This document shows positions 43,683 through 48,114 of a stretch of DNA of 64,000 bases, one piece after another. The stretch is from NCBI GenBank assembly GCA_945902775.1, contig CAMDMY010000003.1:1-64000 (forward strand). The letters are read 5' to 3'. Under the pieces are notes generated by a model. That model had not been told where the DNA came from. It ran no database searches and saw only the letters and a program-made list of their open reading frames with translations. The DNA comes from Chryseobacterium gleum. GTDB taxonomy: Bacteria > Bacteroidota > Bacteroidia > Flavobacteriales_D > Crocinitomicaceae. The position numbers were made by a program, and so were the translations under genes. Position 1 is the first letter of the stretch. Every line of letters starts with the position of its first letter.

Positions 43683-43756
43683 TCCTTCTTAGCTCAGTTG
43701 GTTAGAGCATCTGACTGTTAATCAGAGGGTCCCTGGTTCGAGCCCAGGAGAGGGAG
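43683..43756 (+). tRNA. tRNA-Asn (GUU anticodon)
   Basis: A complete cloverleaf: acceptor TCCTTCT pairs with AGAGGGA, D-arm GCTCAGTTGGTTAGAGC, anticodon arm CTGACTGTTAATCAG with anticodon GTT, T-arm CCTGG-TTCGAGC-CCAGG, discriminator G. Only CA follows, so CCA is not fully encoded. Its 3' end and the first bases after it (43750-43761) recur exactly at 45147-45158. Confidence 0.95.
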
Positions 43757-43757
43757 C

Positions 43758-43789
43758 AAAAAGACTTACAGAAATGTAGGTCTTTTTTG
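43758..43789 (+). terminator. Terminator of tRNA-Asn
   Basis: 13-bp stem AAAAAGACTTACA with TGTAGGTCTTTTT (one G-T pair), loop GAAA, ending in TTTTTT. It also faces the 3' end of fic, so it may stop transcription from both sides. Confidence 0.82.
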
Positions 43790-43802
43790 GTTTCTGTGAG
43801 AT

Positions 43803-44930
43803 TTATTTTTCATTAAACAAATCCAAATAATCTTTAAAAACATACAATTTATTTCTTTGTCCCCCAGATATCTCTTTTAAAATTTCCAATTGCTCTAAAT
43901 CAGAGATTAATTTATAAGCAGTCACGTTCGATTTTTGAATAATTTCTTCAACTCTAGAAACTTCAATAACAGGTTGGGTATATAAATATTCGATTACTTT
44001 TTGTGCATCAATTCCCCTATTTCCAAGCCCCTTTAATTTATCCTCTAAATTCTTTTGCAATTGCAGAATGCCATCAAAGGTAGTAACTCCTTTTTTCGCT
44101 GTTTCAATAATACCTGTCAAGAAAAACTTTAACCATTGATTAATATCATTATGAGTCCTTGCTCGCATGAGGTTATCATAATACAGCATTCTATTCTTTT
44201 CAAAGAAATCAGACAAATACAATATTGGCTGTTTTAAAATGTTTTTACTTACCAGATACAAAGTAACTAAAAGCCTACCAACTCTTCCATTACCATCCAA
44301 AAATGGGTGTATCGTTTCAAACTGATAATGTATAATCGCTATTTTTATTAAATCAGGCAATGGCTTATGTTCATCATTTGCAAATTTTTCCAGATCAGAC
44401 ATCAATTCATTAATACTCGTATGTATTGGAGGAATAAATACAGCATCACTTAAAGTAGCACCTCCAATCCAGTTTTGACTACTACGATATTTACCTGGTA
44501 ATTTATGCTCTCCTCTTACACCTTGTAATAATATTTCATGCGTTTGTTTAATCAACCTTGATGAAAATGGCAATTCATACAATAATTTTACTGCTTCATT
44601 CATTGCACTTATATAATTTTGCACTTCTTCCCAATCATCTCGCTTTTCATTCGAAATTTCCTCTTTACTTAGAAATACTTCCTCCATGTTGGTTTGTGTA
44701 CCTTCGATTTTAGAAGATTGTGTTGCCTCTTTTGCAATGTGCATCCGAATAAACAAATCAATATTTACATATTCTGAGTACATATCTAATCTTCCTAATT
44801 GCCTATCGGCTTTGCTCAGCAATTGTATTACTTCCATATCATTTATTTGCCAATTTCTATTAATTAGATTCGGTTGAAAACTTTTATGATAACCTTGATT
44901 AATATAAGTTCCTGAAATGAATGTATCCAT
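43803..44930 (-). CDS. Fic/DOC family protein (probable AMP transferase)
   Basis: 375 residues. An N-terminal Fic_N part with an inhibitory helix motif (SSKIEGT, residues 72-78, E76), the Fic core with catalytic HPFLDGNGRVGR (208-219; H208), and a C-terminal winged-helix (about 290-370, EVSRVEEIIQKSNVTAYKLI). Proteins with this class II layout transfer AMP from ATP onto target hydroxyls and hold themselves inactive through the N-terminal glutamate. The active-site motif is complete. It sits alone between two short direct repeats next to tRNA-Asn, which suggests horizontal arrival. Target unknown. Confidence 0.93.
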   Translation of the reverse strand: MDTFISGTYINQGYHKSFQPNLINRNWQINDMEVIQLLSKADRQLGRLDMYSEYVNIDLFIRMHIAKEATQSSKIEGTQTNMEEVFLSKEEISNEKRDDWEEVQNYISAMNEAVKLLYELPFSSRLIKQTHEILLQGVRGEHKLPGKYRSSQNWIGGATLSDAVFIPPIHTSINELMSDLEKFANDEHKPLPDLIKIAIIHYQFETIHPFLDGNGRVGRLLVTLYLVSKNILKQPILYLSDFFEKNRMLYYDNLMRARTHNDINQWLKFFLTGIIETAKKGVTTFDGILQLQKNLEDKLKGLGNRGIDAQKVIEYLYTQPVIEVSRVEEIIQKSNVTAYKLISDLEQLEILKEISGGQRNKLYVFKDYLDLFNEK

Positions 44931-45476
44931 TTTTTTAATTTAAATATTCTTAAACAAATATAACACTATTTAAGAAATCATCAGAAAACTTAAATAGAAA
45001 ATTTATTATTTAATAAATAGGGATAAAATCTTAAATAATAGGCGTTTCTAATGAATGCTTTGATAGTTTTGTTTAAGTCCTCTAAGTTGAAGTAAAGATC
45101 ATTTAGTTCAATCCTTCATAATAAGGCTCGACAAAACAAAATTAAGGAGGGAGCAAAATTAAGTCCAATAAGCTAATGTTTATTGGACTTTTTGCTTTTT
45201 AGAGGTTTTTTGTGATTTGCTATTATTTTATTAAAAAGGGATAAATAATAGTAAAGCATCTACTTATTAAAAATAGGGAAAATCATCTAAAATGGTACTT
45301 GCGAAAAATTGATATATTAATAAATAAAAAAGAATAATTGGCAAGGTTATTTAACCTCATTTATTTCAACAAGTGAGATTCAATATCAAAACTTCTTAAG
45401 TTATTCAAAATAAAAAATATTAAACTCTAATTAGTTAATTGAAAAATTATAAATTTGTTTAAATAATATATATCAC
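44931..45476. other. Intergenic stretch with fic promoter, second repeat copy and terminator
   Basis: From left: a -7 element for fic (minus strand TATATTTG, 44955-44962); AT-rich DNA; a stretch at about 45078-45155 that begins TCCTCTAAG and contains GGCTCGAC and GGAGGGAGCA, loosely like a worn tRNA; the second GAGGGAGCAAAA copy; a hairpin terminator (45161-45196); then AT-rich DNA up to a -7 element TAAATTTG (45450-45457) for the next gene. No coding frame recognised. Confidence 0.5.
45161..45196 (+). terminator. Rho-independent terminator without an obvious gene
   Basis: Perfect 11-bp stem AAGTCCAATAA (45161-45171) with TTATTGGACTT (45180-45190), followed by TTTT. No gene precedes it on the plus strand; it directly follows the second copy of the tRNA-end repeat, as the tRNA terminator follows the first. 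Confidence 0.75.
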
Positions 45477-45881
45477 ATGAAACTAACTATCTTTTTTCTA
45501 CTAATATGTAATAGTTATTTTGCTCAAAATATTAAATATTGCAGCGATGCTAAAGGAGTTGAAATACAAAAACTAAAAGATGTAAGTGAAGACAAATCAT
45601 TCAGTCATAAACCTACATATCAATTAAATGATACTCTTTATAATGGAGAAATTAAATCTTGTTTCCCAAATGGCACTTTACATATGACTTGTAGTATTGT
45701 TAAAGGCAAATATCATGGAAAACAAATTTGTTACTCAAATGGAAGTGTTAGAAGTATTGCATATTATATCAATGGACAGCTTGAAGGTAAGGTAGAGTTT
45801 TACGATGTAAATGGGAAAATATGGAGAACCGAAATTTATAAAAAAGATAAATTAGTAAGTTGCAATGGGGATTGTCGATAA
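45477..45881 (+). CDS. Secreted MORN-repeat-like protein
   Basis: 134 residues with a signal peptide (about 1-16, ending YFAQ). Residues about 55-125 carry about three MORN_2-type units (YNGEIKSCFPNGTLHMTC, GKYHGKQICYSNGSVRSI, GQLEGKVEFYDVNGKIWRTE) as found in YwqK-family proteins. Function unknown; MORN-like strips are usually binding surfaces. It ends six nucleotides before the UDG-like gene and shares its promoter (45450-45457), so the two are co-expressed. Confidence 0.7.
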   Translation: MKLTIFFLLICNSYFAQNIKYCSDAKGVEIQKLKDVSEDKSFSHKPTYQLNDTLYNGEIKSCFPNGTLHMTCSIVKGKYHGKQICYSNGSVRSIAYYINGQLEGKVEFYDVNGKIWRTEIYKKDKLVSCNGDCR

Positions 45882-45887
45882 TTAATT

Positions 45888-46709
45888 ATGAAAATTATAA
45901 TTTTTCTTGTAATGACTAGTATCTATTCTAAAATATTTTGTCAAAATTATGTATTCCCTTTTGGTGAGCCATTGCGAAAAGTTGTTCAAAATGATACATC
46001 TTCAAAAAAAATATTTGTTTTAGGTGTTTACGCTAGTGCCGTTCATGCAAAATGGTTAACTCCCGAAGGGAAAATTTTAGTAAAAGCAATTGCAGTAGCG
46101 AGTGAGCCTTCTATTTTTTGGAGAGGGGATTCAATTGAAGCCCATAATATAATTTCTAAAATTAGGATTCCAGAAAACTTAGGAAAACTAGTACCAAGTT
46201 TAGATTCTTTAAATGGTCCATCTGGAAGAAGTTTGGATTCAAATTATTTAATTCCTCTTGGTTTTAATAGAGAAGCTGCTTGGCTTTGTGATTTAGTTCC
46301 ATATTCATGTCAAAACGCTTCTCAAAAATCAGCATTAAAAAGAGTCTACGATAATTATATATTGGAAAATAAACTACCTCAATATGATATTCCAGATGTA
46401 CCAAAAATACTAGCTTCAGAAGATAGAATAAATGAAATTTTAATCGAATTAAAAAAGTCTAACGCAGACACAATAGTCCTATTGGGTGATCAACCTATTA
46501 AATATTTTCTTTCAAAATTTAGTAAAGATTATAAAAAATTAACTGATTTTGAAATATATGGGAGCCCTACAAAAGTTTTAATTGATAATAAAATGTATAC
46601 TGTTATCGCTTTAGCACATCCTAGACAAGTTAGTAAGTTAGGGTCATCGAATAATAAATGGTATGAATTGCATAAAGAATGGGTAAATAATTTATTAAAA
46701 AACAATTAG
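45888..46709 (+). CDS. Uracil-DNA-glycosylase-superfamily-like protein with an N-terminal signal-like segment
   Basis: 273 residues. From about residue 22 it resembles UDG-superfamily proteins: YVFPFGEPLR, FVLGVYASAVHAKW (first active-site loop position), AVASEPSIFWRG, FNREAAWLCDLVPYS, IVLLGDQPIKYFL and LAHPRQVSKLG (distal loop). UDG enzymes remove uracil from DNA in the cytoplasm. Here the first about 18 residues (MKIIIFLVMTSIYSKIFCQ) look like a signal peptide, which would send the domain out of the cytoplasm. The start could instead lie later (ATG 45912). Catalysis is unproven; the canonical water-activating residue cannot be assigned with certainty. Confidence 0.55.
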   Translation: MKIIIFLVMTSIYSKIFCQNYVFPFGEPLRKVVQNDTSSKKIFVLGVYASAVHAKWLTPEGKILVKAIAVASEPSIFWRGDSIEAHNIISKIRIPENLGKLVPSLDSLNGPSGRSLDSNYLIPLGFNREAAWLCDLVPYSCQNASQKSALKRVYDNYILENKLPQYDIPDVPKILASEDRINEILIELKKSNADTIVLLGDQPIKYFLSKFSKDYKKLTDFEIYGSPTKVLIDNKMYTVIALAHPRQVSKLGSSNNKWYELHKEWVNNLLKNN

Positions 46710-46888
46710 TGGCGATAAACTTCTTTCAAAAGTAGTAAAAGAGTAATAATATCAATGGTCATTAATATTCCAATTGCTTTCATATTATTCGTCTTAGACA
46801 GGTTGGGAAAATCATTTTCGTCTATCTTACATTTATTTCTACCACCAACATATCCAGATTGTTTTAAAATTGATGGATATTGAATCAA
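46706..46888 (-). CDS. Doubtful small membrane protein
   Basis: A 60-codon frame overlapping the end of the UDG-like gene by four bases. It has one hydrophobic segment near the C-terminus (AIGILMTIDIITLLLLL) after a polar N-terminus, so it could encode a small membrane peptide, but there is no promoter, family or other support. It may be chance or the end of a degraded gene. Confidence 0.22.
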   Translation of the reverse strand: MIQYPSILKQSGYVGGRNKCKIDENDFPNLSKTNNMKAIGILMTIDIITLLLLLKEVYRH

Positions 46889-47027
46889 ATTCTGTTCTGG
46901 AGTATTTTAAACAGATTCACATAATGTCTCAATAAATATAAACCAAGTAGAATTAATGTAACAAACCTCCTTCCTCTTTTAAACTAAATTTTAAATATTC
47001 ACTCAAATCACGATTTTACACATTTAT

Positions 47028-47044
47028 AATACCAATTTGGTATT
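47028..47044. promoter_or_regulatory. Operator-like palindrome
   Basis: AATACCAATTTGGTATT is a perfect 8+1+8 palindrome, 73 nt ahead of the small charged protein gene at 47117. No regulator is next to it; it may be a binding site or a chance symmetry in AT-rich DNA. Confidence 0.3.
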
Positions 47045-47116
47045 TGATTTGGGTTTCTTAATTTGATTTTGTTAACTTAATTTAAATAGGTATTAACAAC
47101 TTAAAACTAGGGAGTT

Positions 47117-47335
47117 ATGGAAAATTCTATAAAACAACCTTTGACTTCAACAAAAGAAAAGGTGACACTTTATTTATTGGGAATAGATAAAAAATGGGTA
47201 AGAGGGGGAAATAATCAATGGGTTGAAGACATTGAAAAAGAAGTCCCAAAAAAAGCACATGAATCAATACACGAAGAAGTGCAGGAAGAAGTGAAAAAAA
47301 CAAGAAAATGGTGGCAATTTTGGAAAAGAAAATAA
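47117..47335 (+). CDS. Small charged protein with Trp-rich basic C-terminus, unknown
   Basis: 72 residues. The start is preceded by GGGAG at good Shine-Dalgarno distance, which is rare in this window. Lys/Glu-rich helical middle part, ending in KKTRKWWQFWKRK, an aromatic-basic tail that could touch a membrane. No signal peptide and no recognised family. Codon use looks coding. An isolated gene followed by a weak hairpin at 47376-47403. Confidence 0.45.
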   Translation: MENSIKQPLTSTKEKVTLYLLGIDKKWVRGGNNQWVEDIEKEVPKKAHESIHEEVQEEVKKTRKWWQFWKRK

Positions 47336-47955
47336 TTAAGTTAAAACATCCCCACTAAGGGTTTGAACATTTAATAAACCATTCTTCGATGAAGAATTGG
47401 TTTAGATGATATTGTAATCCAAAGCGAGGAAAGTCTTGACGTATTAGATTATATTGTTGGGAGAGCAAAAAATCTACATCGATTAACAACTATCATTTAA
47501 ACTTGTCAATTATAATAAGCTTATCAATCTCTTACTTTTTCTTGATAAGAGAAAACACTGTTTTCGAAGGATAAGCAAAAATCAAGGATCTTTCAAAGGA
47601 ATTTTTCACTTCATTTATTTTATAAAAGTCAACAAACATAGCTAGTGAAGTGAAACCGCAGGTAAATACTTTCCTTCACGCTCTCTTTCGCTGAAAAAGC
47701 GAAACGCGATTACGGAAAATTTACAGCTAATTCGTTAGAAAGACCAATTCTAATTAGTGCTTCGCAAATAGGTGCTATTATTCTTTCTAAATTTTGGTTA
47801 CATTTTTAGTCCCAAAGTTTTGGGATTGATCTGTTTTGCTTATTAATTCGAACATCATGAATAAATAATATGTTTTAAAATCATATTATTTTGCATTTAT
47901 AGCACATAAAATTCAAAGAAATAAAGCCTACATTTATATTCTGAAAAGTTATCAA
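47336..47955. other. Non-coding or decayed stretch with two gene-like fragments
   Basis: Plus-strand frames without starts give protein-like pieces: about 47395-47500 encodes DIVIQSEESLDVLDYIVGRA and ends at TAA 47498, and about 47666-47808 encodes DYGKFTANSLERPILISASQ and ends at TAG. Neither has an identifiable family. A hairpin lies at 47376-47403 (AAACCATTCTTC with GAAGAATTGGTTT) and small inverted repeats at about 47685-47705. It looks like remains of one or two lost genes. Confidence 0.35.
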
Positions 47956-48114
47956 ATGGCAAAGCAAAAGAATACAGACAACAAAAAATTGCATTCTAAA
48001 TTAATGGGGCAGAAGAAAAACAAGAAGCAGCTTCAGAAAGAGAAAAATAAATTGCGCCTTCGTGAGTTGAATCAAAAAGTGAATGAAATGAATAATTCAG
48101 ATTCAGAAAATTAA
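47956..48114 (+). CDS. Very small basic protein, unknown
   Basis: 52 residues from ATG 47956 to TAA 48112-48114: MAKQKNTDNKKLHSKLMGQK followed by a Lys/Gln/Glu-rich helix (QLQKEKNKLRLRELNQKVNE) and a Ser/Asp tail. The composition suggests a nucleic-acid- or ribosome-associated peptide, or a short coiled coil, but no family is recognised. It is below common length cut-offs. It converges on dxr. Confidence 0.42.
   Translation: MAKQKNTDNKKLHSKLMGQKKNKKQLQKEKNKLRLRELNQKVNEMNNSDSEN

Follow-up and report, generated by a model that had tools for sequence, protein, structure and literature searches.

A fic gene between short direct repeats at tRNA-Asn: a probable integrase-less cargo module in a family hotspot

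A single fic gene lies between the 3' end of a tRNA-Asn gene and a displaced second copy of the 12 bp found there, and this arrangement raises the question of how one gene, unaccompanied by an integrase, came to occupy a tRNA locus. The window analyzed here is a stretch of 64,000 nucleotides from a genome of 3.09 Mb (G000), which was compared with the genomes of relatives (G001, G003, G006 and others). G006 belongs to the same genus as G000 and G034 to another genus of the same family, and the majority of the genomes compared are draft assemblies. The reading that we favour, with a probability of about 0.68, is that fic, its operator and a specific right end make up a cargo module of some 1.4 kb, devoid of an integrase and inserted site-specifically at tRNA-Asn as one layer of an accretion array. 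The features on which the argument turns are the following:

43683..43757, plus strand: tRNA-Asn (GTT), called by ARAGORN and Rfam tRNA; intact-looking gene and putative integration target
43750..43761, plus strand: left 12-bp direct repeat, attL-like, made up of the tRNA 3' acceptor strand and CAAAA
43758..43788, unstranded: hairpin 1, terminator-like on both strands
43803..44930, minus strand: fic, 375 aa, with Fic_N and Fic domains
44934..45038, minus strand: predicted fic promoter/operator, with two TTATTTAAG-N-CTTAAATAA-type palindromes and a TAnnTTTG promoter-like box
45039..45146, unstranded: right end of the element, non-coding, 108 bp, as a whole detected in no searched genome but G000 and G003
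45147..45158, plus strand: right 12-bp repeat copy, attR-like; the match to the empty site of G006 starts here and runs rightward
45161..45191, plus strand: hairpin 2, the terminator that stands directly 3' of tRNA-Asn where G006 and G001 have their empty sites
45192..45255, unstranded: additional flank in common with the G006 empty site, by sequence match
45256..47935, unstranded: variable insert, probably older, with a MORN-like gene, a 273-aa gene and a DNA cytosine methyltransferase remnant
47956..48114, plus strand: small gene, separated from tRNA-Asn by about 100 bp in G002:C98, G008 and G009

An earlier note on this DNA had reported the repeat from inspection, and a sequence search confirms the exact 12-mer, GAGGGAGCAAAA, at both positions, with a start-to-start spacing of 1,397 bp and no further copy in the window when up to one mismatch is allowed. 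The concern raised there that the 12-mer might be frequent by chance does not hold: the whole genome contains three exact copies, the third within a kdsB-like coding frame, and from base composition one would expect some 0.17 copies per genome, and in 1.4 kb about 3e-5. The hairpins described directly after each copy are also borne out by fold analysis, both being strong and followed by T-runs, with energies of -14.3 kcal/mol (z -5.4) after the left copy and -16.8 kcal/mol (z -6.8) after the right one. Between the repeats fic is indeed the only gene, with no integrase; a small ORF (44686-44877) on the strand opposite to fic is contained within it. Hairpin 1 could terminate tRNA-Asn and, convergently, fic, and it recurs 3' of tRNA-Asn in G003, G007, G011 and others, sometimes together with mobile-element ends. 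Hairpins 1 and 2 are seen in varying combinations 3' of tRNA-Asn in relatives, as if terminators were swapped along with insertions.

The prediction had been that, at a site empty of fic, the hairpin now at 45161 would stand immediately after tRNA-Asn, and this is the layout found in G006. After tRNA-Asn, that genome reads GAGGGAGCAAAATTAAGTCCAATAAGC..., which corresponds to the window from 45147 onward; the two agree up to 45255 at 95% identity, a match of only about 109 bp, and past 45255 they are not colinear. The same layout of tRNA-Asn and hairpin 2, with a slightly different spacer, is present in G001. Both sites are taken to be chromosomal because of the neighbour genes that follow them, namely a gldH-like lipoprotein and a PSP1-type gene in G006, and a cysteine-desulfurase-like gene and feoB in G001 (all names were assigned by inspecting translations). 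Compared with G006, a segment with fic has been inserted between the 3' end of the tRNA and the terminator behind it. Measured between the starts of the two repeat copies, this segment is 1,397 bp long, and it brings a terminator of its own, hairpin 1. The earlier note had held it against an insertion if fic-less relatives showed unrelated sequence after the tRNA, and this is the case in G002:C98, G004, G005, G008 and G009; such a pattern agrees with a site whose content turns over rapidly, and the G006 match stands.

The right end of the element is found in a second species. Searches of 240 genomes of the family and 399 of the order, in overlapping sets, recovered it from just G000 and G003. 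The G003 copy is 89-90% identical to that of G000, rising to 51/53 (96%) over the last 50 bp or so, and hairpin 2 adjoins it just as in the window, with fic and the promoter-proximal part missing. At the position of the 12-mer G003 has diverged (6/12 identical), and the crossover point is thus placed only approximately. The neighbouring host region (an amidase gene) is about 70-73% identical between the two genomes, and the contrast between 89-90% in the right end and about 70% in the host argues that the element has probably moved horizontally. Taken together with the perfect empty site of G001, whose host genome is 93-96% identical to that of G003, the same contrast speaks for two independent acquisitions and against a shared inheritance. 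It is hence likely that joining at this one boundary took place twice, in G000 and in G003, and a shared boundary is an argument for site-specific joining. In the right end, which bears no visible likeness to the ends of other tRNA-Asn elements, integrase arm sites could not be made out. An exact 23-mer of the right end is absent from viral contigs; a match in G155 (26 bp, 92%, E 9e-4) was left out of account because of its shortness, and one in G401, falling in GC-rich coding DNA, was rejected as chance.

Members of this family carry varied insertions at the 3' end of tRNA-Asn, which is thus a hotspot. In G003, about 23 kb are lodged exactly between the tRNA-Asn 3' end and hairpin 2, a position that is empty in the near-identical G001. 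A first element, coding for a tyrosine recombinase, a resolvase, two cytosine methyltransferases and an HNH protein, is followed there by a 48-bp displaced tRNA 3' half and hairpin 2, which agree with the G001 site at 99/99 positions; a second one contains an integrase frame of about 405 aa, after which comes a stretch matching positions 44966-45210 of the window. The cargo of G003 includes type II R-M genes, that of G002:C78 a NUDIX gene and an mREase_IV-type helicase, and in G007 a DUF6615 gene is located directly 3' of hairpin 1. In G034, tRNA-Asn is followed by an element of about 7.2 kb with an Arm-DNA-bind_5/Phage_int_SAM_5 integrase and then by a 38-bp att copy. The repeats of these integrase-bearing elements measure 38-48 bp, as opposed to 12 bp at the fic module. 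The source genome has eight Phage_integrase matches genome-wide, and no close relative of the G034 tRNA-Asn integrase was found in it at E 1e-20; the module is therefore probably immobile at present.

Two further arrangements at these loci deserve mention. Next in the G034 array stands an integrase-less AbiEi/AbiEii/TPR-like module of 3.0 kb (L049 8656-11694), with 38-bp att copies at its ends. Two contigs of G002 (L046 and L047) diverge after the same partial tRNA-Asn copy, one continuing directly with the small gene and the other having the NUDIX and mREase_IV genes in between, as if the assembly mixed strains with and without this insert.

According to the favoured reading, the 3' end of tRNA-Asn would serve as an attachment site for site-specific recombination. 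The tRNA gene would stay whole, with the incoming DNA supplying hairpin 1 as a terminator, and the old terminator, hairpin 2, would be pushed 1.4 kb downstream, behind the second repeat copy. The module would then represent one layer in an array in which tyrosine-integrase elements and smaller integrase-less passengers are stacked and replaced. We infer this order of events, and also that the recombinase was most likely provided by such an integrase-bearing element, either because the module is the remnant of a larger element (a CIME-like decay) or through recruitment in trans; mobilisation in trans, already envisaged in the earlier note, is possible. The junction of an excised circle would read right end ..AATTAAGGA-GGGAGCAAAA-hairpin 1. 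A more general proposal, in which one-gene defence modules of this family travel between genomes by means of tRNA-Asn integrases borrowed in trans, require no more than a tRNA-end core of about 12 bp and a conserved right end of about 50 bp, and bring a terminator of their own, is speculative and, we think, hardly probable.

Several features of the locus would also suit a recombinase-free origin through homology-facilitated illegitimate recombination, in which an incoming DNA made up of tRNA-Asn, hairpin 1 and fic would have recombined homologously at the tRNA and been closed rightward by the 12-bp microhomology. The repeat is just 12 bp long, integrase sites cannot be recognised in the right end, and the tRNA-Asn loci of relatives show terminators in differing combinations. 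Yet the boundary in which ..AATTAAGGA is joined to hairpin 2 occurs also in G003, within a G001-type flank, and a chance microhomology join would thus be needed twice at one base, which makes this origin rather unlikely. That shared right end, at the same site in G000 and G003, might instead descend from an old insertion in the ancestor of the genus, with mobility confined to the distant past and fic lost later in most species, and the stub in G003 does look like a relic. We regard such a history as quite improbable, since the empty site is perfect in G001, 93-96% identical to G003, G000 and G003 resemble each other far more in the non-coding right end than in their genes, and the 12-mer zone is the most different part in spite of its conserved flanks.

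Of the two readings put forward in the earlier note, a minimal insertion at the tRNA without an integrase is supported by the empty sites of G006 and G001, whereas its alternative, in which the right repeat copy is the leftover of a duplicated and decayed tRNA gene, was rejected and receives almost no credence here. The sequence at 45078-45151 would allow a TCCTCT/GGAGGG pairing, but the weak tRNA-like features attributed to 45078-45155 find no support: neither the Rfam tRNA model, which matches only the real gene even with E up to 0.1, nor ARAGORN has a match at the right repeat, the fold of the region is unremarkable (z -1.9), and its internal hairpin is not preserved in the aligned G003 copy, as judged by eye. 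The 12-mer, moreover, is already explained by the empty sites.

If site-specific insertion of a cargo module is thus the preferred reading, the nature of the cargo becomes relevant. The Fic protein matches the SoFic profile of PADLOC with 397 bits over nearly its whole length, its domain architecture agrees with this assignment, and its nearest solved structures are those of SoFic. The catalytic motif HPFLDGNGR is intact and an inhibitory-helix-like motif, SSKIEG, is present; we take the latter to be typical of class II self-inhibited Fic proteins, and fic presumably to be of class II type. The proteins nearest to it are 82-87% identical and come mostly from Flavobacterium, where the closest ones reach 84-87%, while matches within the same genus reach at most about 32%, a distribution that points to horizontal acquisition of fic. 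None of the 31 fic loci scanned has tRNA-Asn adjacent to fic, and only L099 has one at all, 4.3 kb off. The tandem palindromes and the TAnnTTTG box, on the other hand, travel with this fic clade across Bacteroidota, upstream of fic in L081-L100, which suggests that fic is autoregulated, possibly with the C-terminal domain of Fic acting as the regulator at the predicted palindromic operator. Sofic mediates abortive infection via AMPylation, and an antitoxin gene, AS1, has been described downstream of it (PMC12249575). The protein encoded here resembles SoFic in its Fic_N and Fic domains, its catalytic and inhibitory motifs and its profile match, but the module has no room for an AS1 counterpart downstream of fic, because hairpin 1 starts about 15 bp past the stop codon, and no AS1-like small ORF is evident in the intergenic region upstream. 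By this homology, the benefit to the host is likely to be phage defence by a self-inhibited AMPylating Fic.

Among known systems, the closest parallel is provided by CIMEs, elements of 1.2-13 kb that are common in Streptococcus salivarius (PMC7563491). Like them, the fic module has its cargo between attachment-like sites, with no recombination, conjugation or mobilisation genes between the repeats, and it occupies a locus of tandem accumulation, much as CIMEs in Streptococcus are stacked beside integrase-bearing elements at one target. It differs in that no integrase element adjoins it in G000, no parent ICE or IME has been identified and the host belongs to the Bacteroidota; its att-like flanks, moreover, consist of a short repeat of 12 bp, with a right end unlike those of neighbouring elements. 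Judged by layout alone, the module would work like a CIME, and the arrays of G003 and G034 are suggestive of accretion with integrase-bearing elements. Islander-type tDNA islands, for which an integrase within the island is required (PMC4383910), likewise have an intact tRNA gene at one end and a displaced tRNA 3' piece at the other. The fic module presents the tRNA, the repeat and the empty site expected of a tRNA-targeted island, but it lacks the integrase and its displaced tRNA piece is very short.

The fic module is thus a fine instance of a type of mobile module already known and not a new system, and the main value of the locus resides in the hotspot and in the shared right end. The tRNA-Asn gene of this Bacteroidota family is documented here as a defence hotspot with fast turnover, in which integrase-less passengers can be as small as one gene and incoming DNA may carry its own tRNA terminator. 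A search rule for small defence cargo follows from this arrangement, which is to inspect the DNA between a tRNA 3' end and a displaced terminator; cargo of this sort escapes integrase-based island finders.

The DNA to the right of the module extends the picture of turnover. A different hairpin comes after the tRNA in G002:C98, G008 and G009, and with it a small gene equivalent to that at 47956-48114, the probable ancestral right neighbour of tRNA-Asn. Since this gene adjoins the tRNA in those genomes, 45256-47935 is probably itself older inserted material. The gldH gene of G000 is located on another contig and has no match past its 3' end in comparison with G006. An intergenic stretch at 45260-45347, with inverted TTGCCAA/TTGGCAA-like ends, has one weak further copy in its own genome and is also present in G007 and G003, where it stands between different genes. 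The DNA cytosine methyltransferase remnant (46706-46888) resembles genes in the tRNA-Asn regions of G003 and G007.
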